From contig JAITPN010000014.1 in assembly GCA_031289415.1 (NCBI GenBank), positions 1 to 64,000 on the forward strand: a stretch of DNA of 64,000 nt. Reading direction: 5' to 3'. Each line of letters opens with the position of its first letter. The stretch's first letter is position 1. This document shows positions 1,135 through 56,676 of the stretch, in pieces. Position numbers and translations under genes: made by a program. Below the pieces are notes generated by a model. That model had not been told where the DNA came from and searched no databases. It saw nothing but the letters and a program-made list of their open reading frames with translations. This DNA comes from Prevotellaceae bacterium. Lineage in GTDB: Bacteria; Bacteroidota; Bacteroidia; Bacteroidales; UBA932.

Positions 1135-1599
1135 ATGGCAAACACATTTACACAAATCCACATACACGCCATTTTCGCCGTTCAAAACAGGATGTCGTTA
1201 ATTGACAAATCGTGGCAAGAACGTTTGTACAAATACATTATTGCTATTGTCCAAAAACACGGGCATAAAATTTTATCTATCGGTGGAATGTCCGACCATG
1301 TGCATATCCTATTTGGATTTCGTCCTACACAAGCCTTGTCGAATTTGATACAAGAAGTCAAGCGGGATAGTTCGGAATGGATAAATCAAGAAAAATTGGT
1401 CATGGGAAAATTTTCATGGCAAGAAGGATATGGGGCTTTCTCATACAGTAAATCGCATATTTCACAAGTAGCGACTTATATTGAAACACAAGAGAAACGC
1501 CACAAGAAGAAAACATTTTTGGAAGAATACAAAAAGATATTACAAGATTTTGATTTAGAATATGACGAGAAATATATTTTCAAACGGATTGATGATTAA
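1135..1599 (+). CDS. IS200-like / REP-associated (RAYT-type) Y1 transposase
   Basis: This 154-residue protein has the layout of the Y1 transposase (Transposase_17) superfamily: a start of the type TQIHIHAIFAVQNR, the metal-binding HUH motif in SDHVHILFGF (around residue 54), and a C-terminal helix with Tyr residues (FSYSKSHISQVATYIETQ, around 115) that should carry the nucleophile. Such enzymes cut and join single-stranded DNA at hairpins. The length fits RAYT and IS200 proteins. Palindromes of one family lie on both sides (746-1113 and 1605-1620), so these are probably its substrates. No IS605-type accessory TnpB gene is present. Confidence 0.85.
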   Translation: MANTFTQIHIHAIFAVQNRMSLIDKSWQERLYKYIIAIVQKHGHKILSIGGMSDHVHILFGFRPTQALSNLIQEVKRDSSEWINQEKLVMGKFSWQEGYGAFSYSKSHISQVATYIETQEKRHKKKTFLEEYKKILQDFDLEYDEKYIFKRIDD

Positions 1600-12096: not shown

Positions 12097-12125
12097 AAAA
12101 AATTGATAAACTTCCCTGTTCTTCA

Positions 12126-12175
12126 GGCTTCGCAGGTCTTGCCCCGTTTTTTGAGTGGTGGCTGAACTCCACTTC
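12126..12175 (-). repeat. hairpin-ACGGGGC element, copy 1
   Basis: On the minus strand a hairpin with stem AGTGG/CCACT is followed by AAAAAACGGGGCAAGACC and GAAGCC. Three more copies lie at 12905-12952, 16161-16213 and 16769-16819, always in a gap before an exported-protein gene of this island. Confidence 0.6.
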
Positions 12176-12262
12176 TTGCTTGCTTTTTTACATTGTTTTT
12201 GCAAGATATTTTCCCAATGGTTTTGTTTGTATTTGGTGGGCTGGGCAGCCTGCATTTAATAT

Positions 12263-12901
12263 TTACTTGCTTGTGTACTCCCAATAAAGCCCTGTGGGTG
12301 GTACAATACTCTCTACCCAATCAACCCCTTTAGCTTCATTTTCATAGTAATAAACTATATTCCAACCTTTTTTTAAGCGTATATCTACCGTAACGCCTGT
12401 GCCGTTTGCACCGTTTTCACCTCCCGTAAAAGTTATGCTAACATCTTCCGAAGCAAAAATATGTGAATAATCAACATATTCGTAATCATTATCATCGCTT
12501 TGAATATATCCAATGCGATCTCCGCCTTTAACAATGTAAATATAACTGCTGACTTCAAGTATTTTAGCATTGGTGTTACTGAATTTTAGATATGATTTAT
12601 TCACTTCAGAATCGTATTCGGTAACATTTTTAAGATAATTTTCCGGCACTTCTTTTATGAACTGTAATTTTACACTGCCATTGTTATATTGACCGTTTGC
12701 AACCGTAAAATTACTATCATAAATCAATTCGGCATCGCCACTTGTTACAGGACTTTGGATGTCATTTTTTACTGTTATGGTACGCTCATAAAATCCTCCT
12801 GAACTTTCGCCGGTGTCATCGTCTTTTGCACACGAACTAAATGTAAAAGCACTTGCTATCAAAGTAAAAAGAGCAAATAAATTTATGTTTCTCCTAATCA
12901 T
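12263..12901 (-). CDS. lipoprotein of unknown function
   Basis: I start the gene at 12901 (MIRRNINLFALFTLIASAFT, lipobox Cys about 24) because this gives a proper lipoprotein signal; the longer upstream frame is leader sequence. 212 residues. The mature part is Asp/Gly/Tyr-rich, beta-rich in appearance, and contains FASEDVSITFTGGENGANGT, but no named domain is recognised. It is the first gene downstream of structured RNA copy A and is followed by the lipoprotein gene at 11127-12053. Confidence 0.7.
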   Translation of the reverse strand: MIRRNINLFALFTLIASAFTFSSCAKDDDTGESSGGFYERTITVKNDIQSPVTSGDAELIYDSNFTVANGQYNNGSVKLQFIKEVPENYLKNVTEYDSEVNKSYLKFSNTNAKILEVSSYIYIVKGGDRIGYIQSDDNDYEYVDYSHIFASEDVSITFTGGENGANGTGVTVDIRLKKGWNIVYYYENEAKGVDWVESIVPPTGLYWEYTSK

Positions 12902-12904
12902 TTG

Positions 12905-12952
12905 GCTTTTCGGACTCGCCCCGTTTTTTAAATGGTCTCCGGTCTCCATTGT
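12905..12952 (-). repeat. hairpin-ACGGGGC element, copy 2
   Basis: Here the stem is AATGG/CCATT around AGACCGGAGA, followed by AAAAAACGGGGCGAGTCC. The stem bases differ from copy 1 (AGTGG/CCACT) but remain paired. It ends immediately before the lipoprotein start at 12901. Confidence 0.6.
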
Positions 12953-13050
12953 GTTGCAACTGTGTGCACCCACTGTTGATTTGTTTAAATCTTTATACAT
13001 AACCTATTAATTTAAATTATTTAAATATTTTTTACTAAAAAATAGGCAAT

Positions 13051-16133: not shown

Positions 16134-16160
16134 AAAATTATTATTATTTTTCCTGCTCTA

Positions 16161-16213
16161 ATCGGCTTTGCAGGTCTTGCCCCGTTTTTTTGAGTGGTGG
16201 CTGAACTCCACTT
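16161..16213 (-). repeat. hairpin-ACGGGGC element, copy 3
   Basis: Stem AGTGG/CCACT, then a run of seven A, CGGGGCAAGACC and AAAGCC; nearly identical to copy 1 at 12126-12175. It lies between the lipocalin-like gene and the exported-protein gene. Confidence 0.6.
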
Positions 16214-16267
16214 TAAGATATGGAATGTCTAACAACTTTCCTTGTCGATAGAATACAAAGAAGGGGG

Positions 16268-16736: not shown

Positions 16737-16768
16737 AAAAATCAATAAATTTATTTTTCCTACTCTTA

Positions 16769-16819
16769 CGGCTTCGTAGGTCTTGCCCCGTTTTTTAAGT
16801 GATTGCAGAACTCCACTTT
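16769..16819 (-). repeat. hairpin-ACGGGGC element, copy 4
   Basis: Stem AAGTG/CACTT around GAGTTCTGCAAT, then AAAAAACGGGGCAAGACC and CGAAGCC. It lies just downstream of the terminator of structured RNA copy B. Confidence 0.6.
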
Positions 16820-16847
16820 GTTGTCCCTTTATTTCGAATACGCACAT

Positions 16848-22035: not shown

Positions 22036-22170
22036 CCTTAACCCCATCACCCTTAACTCTTAACTCTTAACACATCACTCTTAACACTTAACACATCACT
22101 CTTAACTCTTAACACTTAACTCTTAACCCTTAACCCATCACTCTTAACACTTAACACTTCACACTTCACT
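22036..22170. repeat. 7-bp word array, locus 1
   Basis: About 19 consecutive 7-bp units fill the whole gap between the kinase stop and the cvpA start. Units are CTCTTAA, CACTTAA, CCCTTAA, CACATCA, CCCATCA and CACTTCA, fitting C-N-C-[TA]-T-[ACT]-A, with one 8-bp unit near the left end. The order of variants shows no simple longer period. Related arrays occur at five other places in the window. No protein or RNA fold explains it. Confidence 0.85.
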
Positions 22171-22708: not shown

Positions 22709-22959
22709 GAATTTGCACGTGCGAATCGACAAAAAACAGCTGTTAACTGACAAAAAGCACCTGTTAATCGACAAAAAACAGCTGTTAATTGACAAAAAGC
22801 AGCTGTTAATTGACAAAAAACACCTGTTAATTGACAAAAGACAGCTGTTAATTGACGAAAAACAGCTGTTAATTGACAAAAAGCACCTGTTAATTGGCTA
22901 AAGACAGCTGTTAATTGACTAAAGACAGCTGTTAATTGACAAAAAGCACATGCAAATTC
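22709..22959. repeat. 21-bp tandem repeat with 63-bp super-period and flanking inverted repeats
   Basis: Ten full copies plus a partial copy of a 21-bp unit (of the form AATTGACAAAAAACAGCTG then TT) span 22724-22947. Units with CAGCTG and CACCTG (or CACATG) alternate as G C G G C G G C G G C, a 63-bp higher-order period. The array is framed by GAATTTGCACGTGC (22709-22722) and GCACATGCAAATTC (22946-22959), inverted with one mismatch. It can be read as a 7-residue repeat (LLIDKKQ), but the lack of a terminal domain and openness on both strands make a protein unlikely. There are no unique spacers, so it is not a CRISPR. Confidence 0.85.
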
Positions 22960-36180: not shown

Positions 36181-36235
36181 TGTAAAACATTTTAAAATTA
36201 ACAAAAAAGGGGGATTTTAAAGAAATACTTTACAT

Positions 36236-36328
36236 ACTTTCCCTACGGCAGCATGACCTGCATCAGGTTGTAAGGGTATAATCTCAGTCCGACACTGCGG
36301 ACACCCCCAAGAATCGGGCGCAAAGGTA
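36236..36328 (-). promoter_or_regulatory. TPP riboswitch (THI element) and its promoter
   Basis: On the minus strand the aptamer reads GGGGGTGTCC (P1/P2 start), GGACTGAGA (the CUGAGA pyrimidine-sensor box), ACCCTT, ACCTGATGCAGGTCATGC (the pyrophosphate-sensor helix) and GCCGTAGGGAAAG, the conserved THI order, at 36236-36307. A TACCTTTG -7 box is at 36321-36328. No clear terminator stem follows, so control may be at translation of the receptor gene 56 nt downstream. Confidence 0.95.
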
Positions 36329-36460: not shown

Positions 36461-36548
36461 GGTGAAGCGTAAAGTGTGAAGGGTGAAGGGTGAAGCGTAA
36501 AGCGTGAAGCGACAAAAACCCTTCACGCTTTACCCTTCACCCTTAACT
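36461..36548. repeat. 7-bp word array, locus 2, two facing arms
   Basis: Seven units in the purine-rich orientation (TGAAGGG, TAAAGCG types) face four in the pyrimidine-rich orientation (CCCTTCA, CGCTTTA, CCCTTAA) across a 9-base loop. The inner parts (36488-36510 and 36520-36542) form a 23-bp stem with two mismatches. It lies downstream of the BACON lipoprotein gene and upstream of the TPP-controlled operon. The rest of 36330-36645 has nothing I can recognise apart from the terminator at 36553. Confidence 0.8.
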
Positions 36549-39924: not shown

Positions 39925-40125
39925 AAAAATGTGAAGTGTGAAGAGAAATGAGTGAAGCGTTTTGTCGTCATATTTTTTTGTAAGTGAAAGGCGAAGTGAT
40001 GTGTTAAGGGTTAAGCGTGAAGTGTTTTGCCGCCTAACCCTTAACTCTTCACACATCACTCTTAACTCTTAACTCTTCACACATCACACTTAACACATCA
40101 CCCTTAACCCTTAACATATCGCTTA
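39925..40125. repeat. 7-bp word array, locus 3, facing arms overlapping the mtaB 3' end
   Basis: A purine-rich arm (about 39928-40027; clean units GTGAAAG, GCGAAGT, GATGTGT, TAAGGGT, TAAGCGT, GAAGTGT near its right end) faces about 12 pyrimidine-rich units (40035-40120: CCCTTAA, CTCTTCA, CACATCA, CTCTTAA, CACTTAA). TTAAGGGTTA pairs with TAACCCTTAA and, one unit further out, GTGATGTG with CACATCAC. The pyrimidine-rich arm runs into the mtaB reading frame and supplies its last codons. Confidence 0.8.
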
Positions 40126-41347
40126 GCCGTACTGCCGCGATTTGCCCTGTCAGCGCCGCGTCGTAGGACGTTTCTACTTTGATGTAGTTGCGGGTGTAGC
40201 CGTACATGCAGCCGTTTTTTTCGGTGTGTTCAAACAAGACGTACTCGTCGCGCCCGATGTTTTTTTTATAAAAATCGTGCAGCAGCGAGTGGCTTAGCTG
40301 CGTGAGGGCTTCGCTGCGGCGCATGCGTTCCTGCTCGGCAACCTGATTGCCGTAGGCGGCGGCAGGCGTGTGCGGGCGGGGAGAGTAGGGGAATACGTGC
40401 ACGAACGAGGGTGCGAGCTGCCGGAGAAAGCGGAACGTGTCGTCAAAATCGGCAGCCGTTTCGTCCGGAAATCCGGTAATCACGTCTGCGCCGATGAAGG
40501 CATACGGCATCGCATGCCGTATTTCGCCGACGCGCTGCGCAAAAAGTTCGCGCGTGTAGCGCCGCTGCATGGCTGCCAGTATTTTGTTGCTGCCCGATTG
40601 CAGGGGAATGTGGAAATGCGGCAATATTTTCCGTGCGTCGGCAATCCACCGTATCATGTCGTGCGTCAGCAGATTGGGTTCTATCGAAGAAATGCGGTAG
40701 CGTTCGATGCCCTCCACGCCGTGCAGCGCTTTGAGCAAGTCGAAGAACGTGTCGCCGGTGCTTTTCCCGAAGTCGCCGATGTTTACGCCCGTAATGACAA
40801 TCTCTTTCACGCCTTTCCGGGCAATGGCTTCCGCCGTGTCGACCAATTTTCCTATCGGGATGTTGCGGCTCTTTCCGCGAGCCAACGGTATGGTGCAGTA
40901 GGTACACCGGTAGTCGCATCCGTCCTGTACTTTGAGGAACGAGCGTGTGCGGTCGCCCGACGAGTATGCCGCGAAAAAGTTTTCGGACGGCGCGGCGGTG
41001 CGTGGCGCGTGGGGCGCGTATATCTCGTTTTTGTCGGCAACGACGGTTATTTTCGAGGCGTCTTGGTGCAGTGCGGCAATTTCGTGCGGGCGGAGTTGTG
41101 CGTAGCAGCCTGTAACCACAATCGCCGCATCGGGGTTCAGCTTTGCCGCCCGCCGGATGGCTTGCCTGCATTTCCGCTCGGCAGCCGACGTGACGGAGCA
41201 GGTGTTTACGACGTACACGTCAGCCTGTTCCGTAGGCGGCACGCGCTCGTAGTCCGGTTCGGGAAACTGTCGGGCAATGGTGGATGTTTCGGAAAAATTC
41301 AGTTTGCATCCGAGTGTTACGAATGCTATTTTCTGCTTTACTGCCAT
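40049..41347 (-). CDS. mtaB: tRNA (t6A37)-C2 methylthiotransferase MtaB
   Basis: 432 residues. An N-terminal UPF0004 domain has three cluster cysteines (TLGCKLNFSE, VNTCSVT, VTGCYAQ). The radical-SAM core is CDYRCTYCTIP (about 145-155), and a C-terminal TRAM domain follows. It makes ms2t6A at position 37 of tRNA. The last ~22 residues (MLRVKGDVLSVMCEELRVKS and two more) are encoded by the heptamer array, not by a normal TRAM end; the ancestral stop was probably near SDML. It is the last gene of an operon that starts with the PPi-phosphofructokinase gene. Confidence 0.93.
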   Translation of the reverse strand: MAVKQKIAFVTLGCKLNFSETSTIARQFPEPDYERVPPTEQADVYVVNTCSVTSAAERKCRQAIRRAAKLNPDAAIVVTGCYAQLRPHEIAALHQDASKITVVADKNEIYAPHAPRTAAPSENFFAAYSSGDRTRSFLKVQDGCDYRCTYCTIPLARGKSRNIPIGKLVDTAEAIARKGVKEIVITGVNIGDFGKSTGDTFFDLLKALHGVEGIERYRISSIEPNLLTHDMIRWIADARKILPHFHIPLQSGSNKILAAMQRRYTRELFAQRVGEIRHAMPYAFIGADVITGFPDETAADFDDTFRFLRQLAPSFVHVFPYSPRPHTPAAAYGNQVAEQERMRRSEALTQLSHSLLHDFYKKNIGRDEYVLFEHTEKNGCMYGYTRNYIKVETSYDAALTGQIAAVRLSDMLRVKGDVLSVMCEELRVKSDV

Positions 41348-45430: not shown

Positions 45431-45470
45431 ATGAAAGGTGAAGCATAAAGCATGAAATGTAAAGTGAATA
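45431..45470. repeat. 7-bp word array, locus 4, single purine-rich arm
   Basis: Five or six units in the purine-rich orientation (GAAAGGT, GAAGCAT, AAAGCAT, GAAATGT, AAAGTGA) lie between the phosphofructokinase and aldolase genes. No facing arm is visible. The rest of this 307-bp gap holds the two divergent promoters. Confidence 0.55.
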
Positions 45471-53189: not shown

Positions 53190-53236
53190 AAGTGAATAGT
53201 GAAGTGTGAAGCGTGATGTGTGAAAGGTGAAGGGGA
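53190..53236. repeat. 7-bp word array, locus 5, left arm
   Basis: Six units in the purine-rich orientation (GTGAATA, GTGAAGT, GTGAAGC, GTGATGT, GTGAAAG, GTGAAGG) just upstream of dnaE. They face the pyrimidine-rich arm at 53362-53408. Between them lie a 13-bp palindrome and about 95 bp of unremarkable sequence. Confidence 0.75.
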
Positions 53237-53263
53237 GTTCCCTGAGCGTTTCAGGGAACTCCC
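53233..53263. repeat. 13-bp perfect palindrome between heptamer arms
   Basis: GGGAGTTCCCTGA and TCAGGGAACTCCC pair perfectly around GCGTT. It has no T-run on either side, so it looks like a protein-binding or REP-type palindrome rather than a terminator. Confidence 0.6.
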
Positions 53264-53361
53264 TGAAAAGATTCGAGCGTCTCCCCAAATGTTTTTATAG
53301 CTAACGGAGGGTTATATATAATAAGGTATAAGAACAGGCAGGCGCACCCCACGCCTCACAC

Positions 53362-53408
53362 ATAACTCTTAACTCTTCACCCTTAACACTTCACCCATCA
53401 CCCTTCAC
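53362..53408. repeat. 7-bp word array, locus 5, right arm
   Basis: Six units in the pyrimidine-rich orientation (CTCTTAA, CTCTTCA, CCCTTAA, CACTTCA, CCCATCA, CCCTTCA) facing the left arm at 53190-53236. The small gene at 53413 ends immediately after it. Confidence 0.75.
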
Positions 53409-53730: not shown

Positions 53731-56565
53731 GTGAATAAGACAAAAATATCCCCCGATCCGTTGCCCGACGACGGCTATATCCACGTGAAAGGCGCACGGC
53801 TGCATAATCTTAAAAATATTGAGGTGATGATACCGCGCAACCGGCTGGTGGCGGTTACCGGACTGTCGGGTTCGGGCAAATCGACGCTGGCGTTCGATAC
53901 GGTGTTTGCCGAAGGGCAGCGCCGCTACGTGGAAAGCCTCTCGGCTTATGCGCGGCAGTTCCTCGGCAGGGCGAGCAAGCCCGACGTCGATTTCATCACC
54001 GGAATCCCGCCTGCCATAGCCATCGAGCAGCGGGCGAACACCCGCAATCCGCGCTCGACGGTGGGTACGTCGACCGAGATTTATGATTACCTGAAATTGC
54101 TGTATGCCCGCATCGGACGGACGTTTTCGCCGGTGTCGGGCGGCGAGGTGAAGCGGCACAGCGTAGCCGACGTGGTCGATTTCATTGCCGCGCAGCCCGC
54201 CGGCGAGCGGCTCTACCTCCTGTCGCCGTTGGTATTAAAAGACGGCATGGGGTTGATTGAGAAGCTGACGCTGCTGCAAAACGAGGGGTTTACGCGCCTT
54301 TATGCCGACGGCGGGGAGCGGCGCATCGAAGAAATTTTGCCGGACATTGATAGTTATAAGGATAAAACCATCCGGGTGCTGATTGACCGCGCGGCGGCAA
54401 CCCGCGATGCGGACGCGTTGAGCCGCATAGCCGACAGCGTGCAGAGCGCTTTTGCGGAGGGCGGCGGCGTATGTTTCGTCGTCAGGGCGGCTGACGGCGG
54501 GTGTACGGCGTTCGATATTCAGTTTGCCGCCGACGGCATGACGTTTGAAGAGCCTACGGAGCATTTGTTCAGTTTCAACAATCCGGTGGGGGCGTGTCCG
54601 CGCTGCGAGGGCTACGGGCGCGTGATTGGCATCGACGAAGACCTCGTGGTGCCCGACCGCGGGCTGTCGATATACAACGACGCGGTTGCCTGCTGGCGCG
54701 GGGCGGTCATGAAAGAGTATAAAGACCGCCTGCTGCACGTGGCTGATAAGGTGAAAATTCCGGTACACCGACCATATTATGAGTTGACGGAGGGGCAGAA
54801 AAAGACATTGTGGGAGGGCAATGCGTCGTTCACCGGACTGCACGATTTTTTTGCCATGTTGGAAGCGAATAAATATAAGATACAGTGCCGCGTGATGCTG
54901 AGCCGGTATATGGGGAAGACTACGTGTCCCGACTGCCACGGCACGCGGCTGCGCAAGGAGGCAGGGTATGTGAAGGTGGCGGGCAAAACCATCAGCGAGC
55001 TGGTGGTGATGCCTGTGGACGTGCTGCACGCCTTTATGCACGACCTCGCGCTAACGGATTACGACCTGAAAGTAGCGGGGCGCGCGCTGGTGGAAATACG
55101 CAACCGCCTGCAGTTCCTGCTCGACGTGGGCTTGGGCTATCTGACGCTCAACCGCCTGTCGAACACGCTGAGCGGCGGCGAAAGTCAGCGCATCAATCTG
55201 GCTACGTCGTTGGGGAGCAGCCTCGTGGGGGCGCTTTATATCCTCGACGAGCCGAGCATCGGCTTGCATCCGCACGATACGCAACGGTTGGTGAAGGTGC
55301 TGCGGCAGCTGCGCGACTTGGGCAATACGGTGCTGGTGGTGGAGCATGAAGAGGAGATTATCCGCGCGGCGGACGAGGTGATCGACATCGGTCCGTTAGC
55401 CGGACGGCACGGCGGCGAAGTGGTGTTCCAAGGGAAAGCGCCCGACAAGGTTGCCGCAAAATCCAAGAAAACGCCCGCAGCCCGCACGGCTTCGTTGACG
55501 CTGGCGTACTTGAACGGCAGCGAAGCCATAGACGTGCCGGCGCATAGGCGGAAGATGAATAATTATATCGAAGTAAAAGGCGCGTGCGAAAATAATCTTC
55601 GACATATTGATGTGCGCTTTCCGCTCGAAGGGCTGGTAGCGGTAACGGGCGTCAGCGGGTCGGGCAAATCGTCGCTGGTGAAAGGCATTTTATATCCGGC
55701 GTTGAACAAGTTGATTAACCAAAGCGGCGACAAGCCGGGTAAGTTCGACAGCCTGCAAGGCGACGTGAAGCGCATCAAGCGCGTGGAAATGATTGACCAG
55801 AACGCCATCGGACGCTCGTCGCGCTCCAACCCGGTGACGTACATCAAGGCGTATGACGAGATACGGAAGCTGTTTTCGGAGCAGCCCTACGCCAAGCTCA
55901 ACGGCTACGGACATTCGCACTTTTCGTTCAATATCGACGGCGGACGCTGCGAAGCGTGTCTGGGTGACGGCGCTATCAAAGTCGAAATGCAGTTTATGGC
56001 TGACGTTACGCTGGTGTGCGAAGCCTGCGGCGGCAAACGGTTTAAACCCGATATTCTGGAAGTGCGCTACAAAAACTACAGTATTGCCGACGTGCTTGAC
56101 TTTACGGTAAACCAAGCTATCGAATTTTTTGCGGAACAAAAGGAATCTACGGCGAAGAAAATAGCCGACAAGCTACAACCGCTGCAAAACGTAGGGTTGG
56201 GGTATATCAAGCTTGGGCAGGAGAACAGTACGTTGAGCGGCGGCGAGATTCAGCGCGTAAAGTTAGCGTCGTTTCTCGGCAAGGACGACGACACGTCGCC
56301 GGTGATGTTTATCTTCGACGAGCCTACCACAGGCTTGCATTTTCACGACATCAAGCGTCTGCTGGGCGTGTTTGACGCGCTGGCGTCGCGCGGGCATACC
56401 CTCGTGGTGGTCGAACACAATGTAGAAGTAATAAAATGCGCCGACTGGGTGATAGACCTCGGTCCCGGCGGCGGCGAACACGGCGGACAGCTCGTCTTTG
56501 CCGGTACGCCCGAAGCGCTTGCCGCATGCGAAAAATCGGTTACAGGGGGATTTGTGAAGTGTTAG
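53731..56565 (+). CDS. uvrA: UvrABC excinuclease subunit A
   Basis: 944 residues from a GTG at 53731. Two ABC ATPase cassettes: Walker [10 protein letters not shown] (44-52) and GVSGSGKSS, with signatures [19 protein letters not shown] and [16 protein letters not shown]. Zinc modules are CPRCEGYG and CPDCHGTR in the first half and CEACLGDG with CEACGGKR in the second. It finds bulky DNA lesions with UvrB. The last codons (GTG AAG TGT TAG) are the first units of a heptamer array, as at mtaB. Confidence 0.96.
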
Positions 56566-56676
56566 ACGTTAAGAGTGATGTGTGAGGAGATACCTTATAT
56601 GTAGTTAAGACGTTCTTCACCCTTAACTCTTAACACTTAACGCTTAACGCATCACTCTTAACACATCACTCTTCAC
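56554..56676. repeat. 7-bp word array, locus 6, facing arms after uvrA
   Basis: A left arm of about five purine-rich units (GTGAAGT, GTTAGAC, GTTAAGA, GTGATGT, GTGAGGA) begins inside the uvrA stop region. After about 30 bp a right arm of nine units follows (CCCTTAA, CTCTTAA, CACTTAA, CGCTTAA, CGCATCA, CACATCA, CTCTTCA). It lies between uvrA and a lipoprotein gene of the same direction. Confidence 0.8.

Follow-up and report, generated by a model that had tools for sequence, protein, structure and literature searches.

In the 64,000-nucleotide stretch of DNA from an uncultured Prevotellaceae bacterium analysed here (the window), the gap between the PfkB kinase gene and cvpA is nearly all made up of 7-bp units of the form C-N-C-[TA]-T-[ACT]-A (CNCWTHA), as an earlier note on this DNA had described; 18 consecutive units match exactly. 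Five further loci in the window had been said to carry the same word family, and all of them do, the one at 45432-45466 weakly, with most of its units off-pattern (Table 1). Elsewhere in the window we found four matches to the DUF805 cis-regulatory RNA (12109-12177, 12887-12954, 16146-16216, 16753-16821 (-)) and a TPP riboswitch (36223-36318 (-)) just upstream of a TonB-dependent receptor gene.

Runs of these units are neither due to chance nor confined to the window. With up to two mismatches, 63 three-unit matches were counted in the window versus 0.42 ± 0.70 expected from 100 dinucleotide shuffles, and 329 exact three-unit runs (205 + 124) were present genome-wide; the reversed control pattern gave none. 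More than 100 patches of the loosely spelled repeat exist in the genome, usually as two mirror-image arms. They form about 70 clusters adjoining unrelated genes, and array length ranges from 2 to 21 units. A proposed check for intergenic bias came out positive: 7.6% of the array bases lie inside called genes versus 79% of the genome, where gene calls came from a simple script based on ORFs and hexamers instead of a standard caller, so that all gene-related counts are approximate.

Unit and arm analyses covered 1.51 of the 2.06 Mb of the genome, which is 93% complete. Using a position model, we collected 723 units from this portion. Position 1 is C (.98), position 3 C (.95), position 5 T (.99) and position 7 A (.94), while position 2 is near uniform, position 4 is T (.81), A (.13) or C (.05), and position 6 is C (.58), A (.28) or T (.15) and never G. 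The degeneracy thus lies mainly at positions 2, 4 and 6, and the vocabulary amounts to about 20 words of one grammar, mixed inside arrays. Positions 1, 3, 5 and 7 are evidently under constraint, which may come from selection or from the way in which the units are copied. Of the previous proposal of either selected degeneracy or a mosaic-making process, the position-specific degeneracy stands.

Table 1. Array loci in the window and their parts
Feature	Position	Strand	Remarks
PfkB-cvpA array, single C-sense arm	22036-22170	+	18 exact units at 22043-22168; fills the PfkB-cvpA gap
Left arm, 7 units	36463-36511	-
Short core between arms (ACAAAAA)	36512-36518	.
Right arm, 4 units	36519-36546	+	Predicted to fold with the left arm at -44 to -48 kcal/mol (z -7 to -8)
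Outer left arm, 4 units	39932-39959	-	Preceded (minus strand) by core-like GACGACAAAA
Inner left arm, 4 units	39997-40024	-
Right arm, 12 units	40031-40114	+	G-strand codes for the last ~20 residues and stop of an MtaB-like gene, 40049-41347 (-)
Weak, decayed arm, 5 units	45432-45466	-
Left arm, 6 units	53193-53234	-
Centre with two 21-bp palindromic units (GGGAGTTCCC... / GGGAACTCCC...)	53235-53351	.	Read directly
Right arm, 8 units	53352-53407	+
Left arm, 5 units	56555-56589	-	uvrA, 53731-56565 (+), takes its final codons (VKC) and its TAG stop from this arm
Spacer between arms	56590-56612	.
Right arm, 9 units	56613-56675	+

Inverted arms around a core

Most arrays belong, as arms, to an element with the layout 5'-(TDAWGNG)n - core - (CNCWTHA)n-3'. 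The earlier note saw the word arrays and missed this inverted, polar element with its core and its tie to gene 3' ends. Minus-strand units are numerous at five of the six window loci, and inverted arms are formed at four of those five. The PfkB-cvpA array has no minus arm and is predicted not to fold; such single arms are common. Among opposed arm pairs at most 600 bp apart, 27 have the order '-+' and none the order '+-'. This order is kept far from genes, being that of all eight opposed pairs that lie over 40 bp from the nearest called gene; arm polarity thus seems to be a property of the element itself and not merely to reflect a filter imposed by genes.

The core between the arms is often 17-20 bp long, with AAGCCTTCGGACGACAAAA as its best form, and a related core occurs in about 20 elements. 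Alternatively, the centre consists of 21-bp palindromic tandem units (L056:13149-13281; window 53235-53351), and one element (L117) in G018, a genome of another genus, carries a GGCTGGCGCCAGC palindrome there. No terminal inverted repeat of fixed sequence was found on the elements, which are bounded by variable heptamer arms. A T-tract is not a regular feature: CTTTTTT closes some right arms, and others run directly into the stop of the next gene. At L016:10292-10378 and L019:6183-6304 we observed 45-47 bp head-to-tail copies composed of a core half, four heptamers and a T-tract (CGAGCGACAAAACACTTCACGC...CTTTTTT); these copies may illustrate the duplication of arms.

RNA folding was predicted to be strong for nine of ten stretches (-31 to -68 kcal/mol, z -4 to -10), because the heptamer arms are inverted. 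Gapped alignment of the units of arm pairs gave a z of only 2.0-2.2 above shuffled or swapped partners. Compensation between arms is therefore weak and does not demonstrate selection on the exact hairpin.

Among tandem repeats in this genome, periods that are multiples of 7 prevail. The genome contains 41 tandem arrays with a period of 21, 42 or 63 bp, mostly intergenic and with locus-specific units (for example window 22724-22949, L015:7572-7906 and L066:15404-15665). Palindrome arms of at least 5 bp are present in 56% of these arrays versus 8% of random 21-mers.

Insertion at the PfkB-cvpA gap and distribution among relatives

Comparison with orthologous gaps, another proposed check, revealed that the PfkB-cvpA array is not conserved. 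The gap measures 1 bp in three genus mates (TATATAA T ATG) and is occupied by 141 bp of array here, placed exactly between the PfkB stop and the cvpA start. No target duplication was detected against the empty site of these three genomes, a comparison that rests on this one site. The array is a clean insertion.

Exact three-unit matches number 329 in the genome of the window (G000) and 204 in G018, versus 17, 16, 0 and 0 in the genus mates G002, G004, G001 and G003, with compared genomes being 59-100% complete. Most of the family has none. Among 395 Bacteroidia genomes, 52 contain at least one run and a few are rich (G358, for one, has 188), each using a dialect of its own. We rejected the idea that CNCWTHA is a grammar special to the class: the reversed control also forms runs in many Bacteroidia, so the class-wide signal means that heptamer arrays are common and only single genomes stand out. 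The PfkB-cvpA array gave no match to phages, a plasmid search returned only short 80% Xanthomonas matches to one element, and Rfam yielded no match at arrays.

Two candidate mobilisers were rejected. The copy number of Y1/RAYT transposases does not track the arrays: G018, with its 204 matches, has no Y1 match and the array-free G003 has two. A Y1 (IS200-like) transposase gene lies in the window at 1135-1599 (+), beside an imperfect 132-bp tandem duplication (837-1075). A family of about 221 amino acids seemed to follow array counts among close relatives, but as a general agent it fails, since G358, G200, G203 and others are array-rich without the family and G025 has seven copies and no arrays. 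This family has no Pfam match; its members include L011:8526-9191 (-), L015:6839-7504 (-) and L038:1957-2658 (-) plus about 15 more matches, with 41 matches in G018 and none in most relatives. Ten of 12 gene copies examined have a 21n-bp array 5' of them (most arrays 52-84 bp away, one overlapping the gene end), and four carry a heptamer arm at their 3' end. No reverse transcriptase (PF00078) was found in the 93% complete genome of the window, so reverse transcriptase-templated addition is without a candidate there.

Gene ends and translation

Forty genes end inside an arm or no more than 15 bp from one. Of these, 39 are G-sense (30 inside the arm, 9 near it), and the sole C-sense case is the PfkB-cvpA locus. 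In all 30 genes that end inside an arm, the sense strand is the G-rich one, and their stop codon thus comes from the array. These stops fall mostly in unit 1, 2 or 3, that is in all three frames, as expected for random frame entry with an array-supplied stop. The uvrA product, for instance, ends in GGFVKC* here, with its last codons in the array, versus GRFLKALL* in its G003 homologue, which is 45% identical and thus possibly a paralogue. A second gene likewise has a replaced tail, ending in LFQ* versus VFRN* in a 67% identical homologue. Convergent gaps are over-represented at elements (17 of 55, p 0.001).

Seven genes start no more than 60 bp from an arm, all of them on its C-strand side. 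The G-strand of the arms has 572 ATG, GTG and TTG triplets and the C-strand has 3, an asymmetry that stems from the grammar and is no separate proof of selection. Translation safety accounts for the lack of G at position 6, but not for the fixed C at positions 1 and 3. In G018, gene 3' ends are again G-sense (11 versus 0 C-sense) and the four arm pairs '-+'; gene-end polarity is weaker in G002 and G004 combined (3 versus 2).

Origin of the arrays and competing explanations

The order of the units agrees with the earlier claim that the arrays are not a product of uniform slippage. Identity between adjacent units is about 0.093 versus about 0.105 in within-array shuffles, and position 6 is less alike in adjacent units than in shuffled ones (0.433 versus 0.494 ± 0.015). 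Neighbours thus resemble each other no more than shuffled units do, so the arrays do not stem from one-unit slippage. The claim that the order has no simple longer period was not quite right: unit identity exceeds the shuffles at lags 3 and 6 only (21 and 42 bp; z 2.1 and 2.9), and TRF reported a 21-bp consensus with 85% matches for the PfkB-cvpA array. Different arrays have 73 three-unit strings in common versus 40 after shuffling, and 10 four-unit strings versus 2.6; no five-unit string is shared between arrays. These data argue for block copying or recombination, a step that we infer, with positions 2, 4 and 6 drifting afterwards.

The explanation we prefer, and to which we give about an even chance, is a mosaic repeat resembling BIMEs, dispersed between genes and able to form hairpins, of which the arrays are the arms; it would spread and be tolerated where it is safe for translation. 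Such an element would spread, by whatever route, through copying or recombination between dispersed copies, and block duplications of about 21 bp would accompany the spread. Insertions would survive mainly between genes, right at stop codons, with a translation-safe grammar in which stops are frequent in the G-strand and starts nearly absent in the C-strand facing downstream genes. A recognition or copying constraint would keep positions 1, 3, 5 and 7, leaving positions 2, 4 and 6 to drift. The PfkB-cvpA array would be a one-armed copy, and any host effect, for instance the insulation of adjacent transcripts by a hairpin acting in both directions as in REP/BIME, would be secondary. Against this explanation stand the lack of a mobiliser and of a fixed terminal inverted repeat in our searches, the absence of a target duplication at the one site compared with its empty state, the rarity of shared long tracts, and the one-armed, non-folding state of the PfkB-cvpA array itself.

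It is possible, but rather unlikely, that the elements are instead bidirectional terminators or mRNA 3'-end stabilisers, selected to form an RNA hairpin after the stop of one gene or of two convergent genes. The 39 gene 3' ends within 15 bp of arms, the convergent-gap enrichment and the predicted folding of nine of ten stretches would all fit such a role, as would the purine 5' arm and pyrimidine 3' arm, which are as in terminators. However, the arms hardly covary (z 2.0-2.2), single arms are many, the T-tract is not regular, and array-free genus mates manage the same genes.

We consider it improbable that a heptamer-reading protein (nucleoid, CspA-like or translational regulator) binds the arrays as tandem sites. 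Contacts at positions 1, 3, 5 and 7 would match their near-invariance next to a near-random position 2 and unit order, the 21-bp excess corresponds to two helical turns, and a model in which Csp binds TAACTGA heptamers has been put forward (PMC4679880). But no candidate protein emerged and most close relatives have no arrays; moreover, the about 70 clusters lie at unrelated genes and vary in length from 2 to 21 units. There is also little likelihood that the arrays are replication-slippage minisatellites blurred by point mutation. The genome is full of arrays with 7n periods, and Mrazek 2007, as cited in PMC4679880, has period 7 as the commonest long simple repeat in many prokaryotes; those heptanucleotide repeats are near-perfect and attributed to slippage. 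Here, unalike neighbours, variation at positions 2, 4 and 6, strict inverted polarity and a common core already largely contradict it. An end-healing or repeat-adding activity that extended DNA 3' ends with telomere-like G-rich heptamers (T-D-A-W-G-N-G), the healed ends then being joined, would explain head-to-head arms, their near independence, neighbour dissimilarity and trimmed gene ends, but is most improbable, with no candidate enzyme and no PF00078 reverse transcriptase in the 93% complete genome.

The dispersed mosaic repeat, our preferred explanation, can be set beside known systems. Cyanobacterial STRRs are 7-bp intergenic tandem repeats, and BIMEs are palindromic mosaic intergenic repeats. 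The earlier statement that no described element has this pattern was therefore too strong, given these STRRs, the 7-bp intergenic tandem repeat TAACTGA (PMC4679880) and REP/BIME. TAACTGA direct repeats occur in Beggiatoaceae, cyanobacteria and five Bacteroidetes (MacGregor 2015, PMC4679880). Like STRRs, they resemble the arrays in their 7-bp tandem intergenic units, polarity relative to genes, patchy phylogeny and stops in one orientation. However, they repeat one fixed word, mostly upstream of starts, with related words rarely repeated (PMC4679880), whereas the arrays draw on about 20 words of one grammar and form inverted arms on both sides of a core, at gene 3' ends. The TAACTGA word does not fit CNCWTHA in any rotation or as its complement.

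REP/BIME are similar as dispersed intergenic palindromes with oriented mosaic dimers, predicted RNA hairpins and a patchy occurrence between relatives. In contrast to the fixed 20-40 bp palindrome of GTAG/CGTC-tagged REP, which has a terminal tag and often a RAYT (PMC3733652), the elements here have degenerate heptamer arms of variable length, and no RAYT link was found; their core has CGTC in its reverse complement, but not as the terminal tag of a fixed palindrome. The BrickBuilt MITE of Porphyromonas gingivalis (PMC4596501) is likewise from Bacteroidales, intergenic, multi-copy, lineage-restricted and built of tandem short units; its 23-nt units, non-repetitive leader and tail, and IS5-like inverted ends are absent here. 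The elements thus share period and polarity with TAACTGA repeats, palindromic mosaic organisation with REP/BIME and lineage with BrickBuilt, and lack a defining feature of each. The element is real and little described: the part of the literature searched held no prior description, although one may exist elsewhere.

The arrays would be of relevance for assembly, as several contigs end in or near them. They further provide a testable case of short degenerate intergenic repeats whose spread is explained by neither slippage nor RAYT. They also show that repeats of one family are able to move into the 3' ends of genes and take over their stop codon and C-terminal tail. Dozens of genes are affected, core genes such as uvrA and the MtaB-like gene among them, and the strict polarity makes the array harmless to translation.
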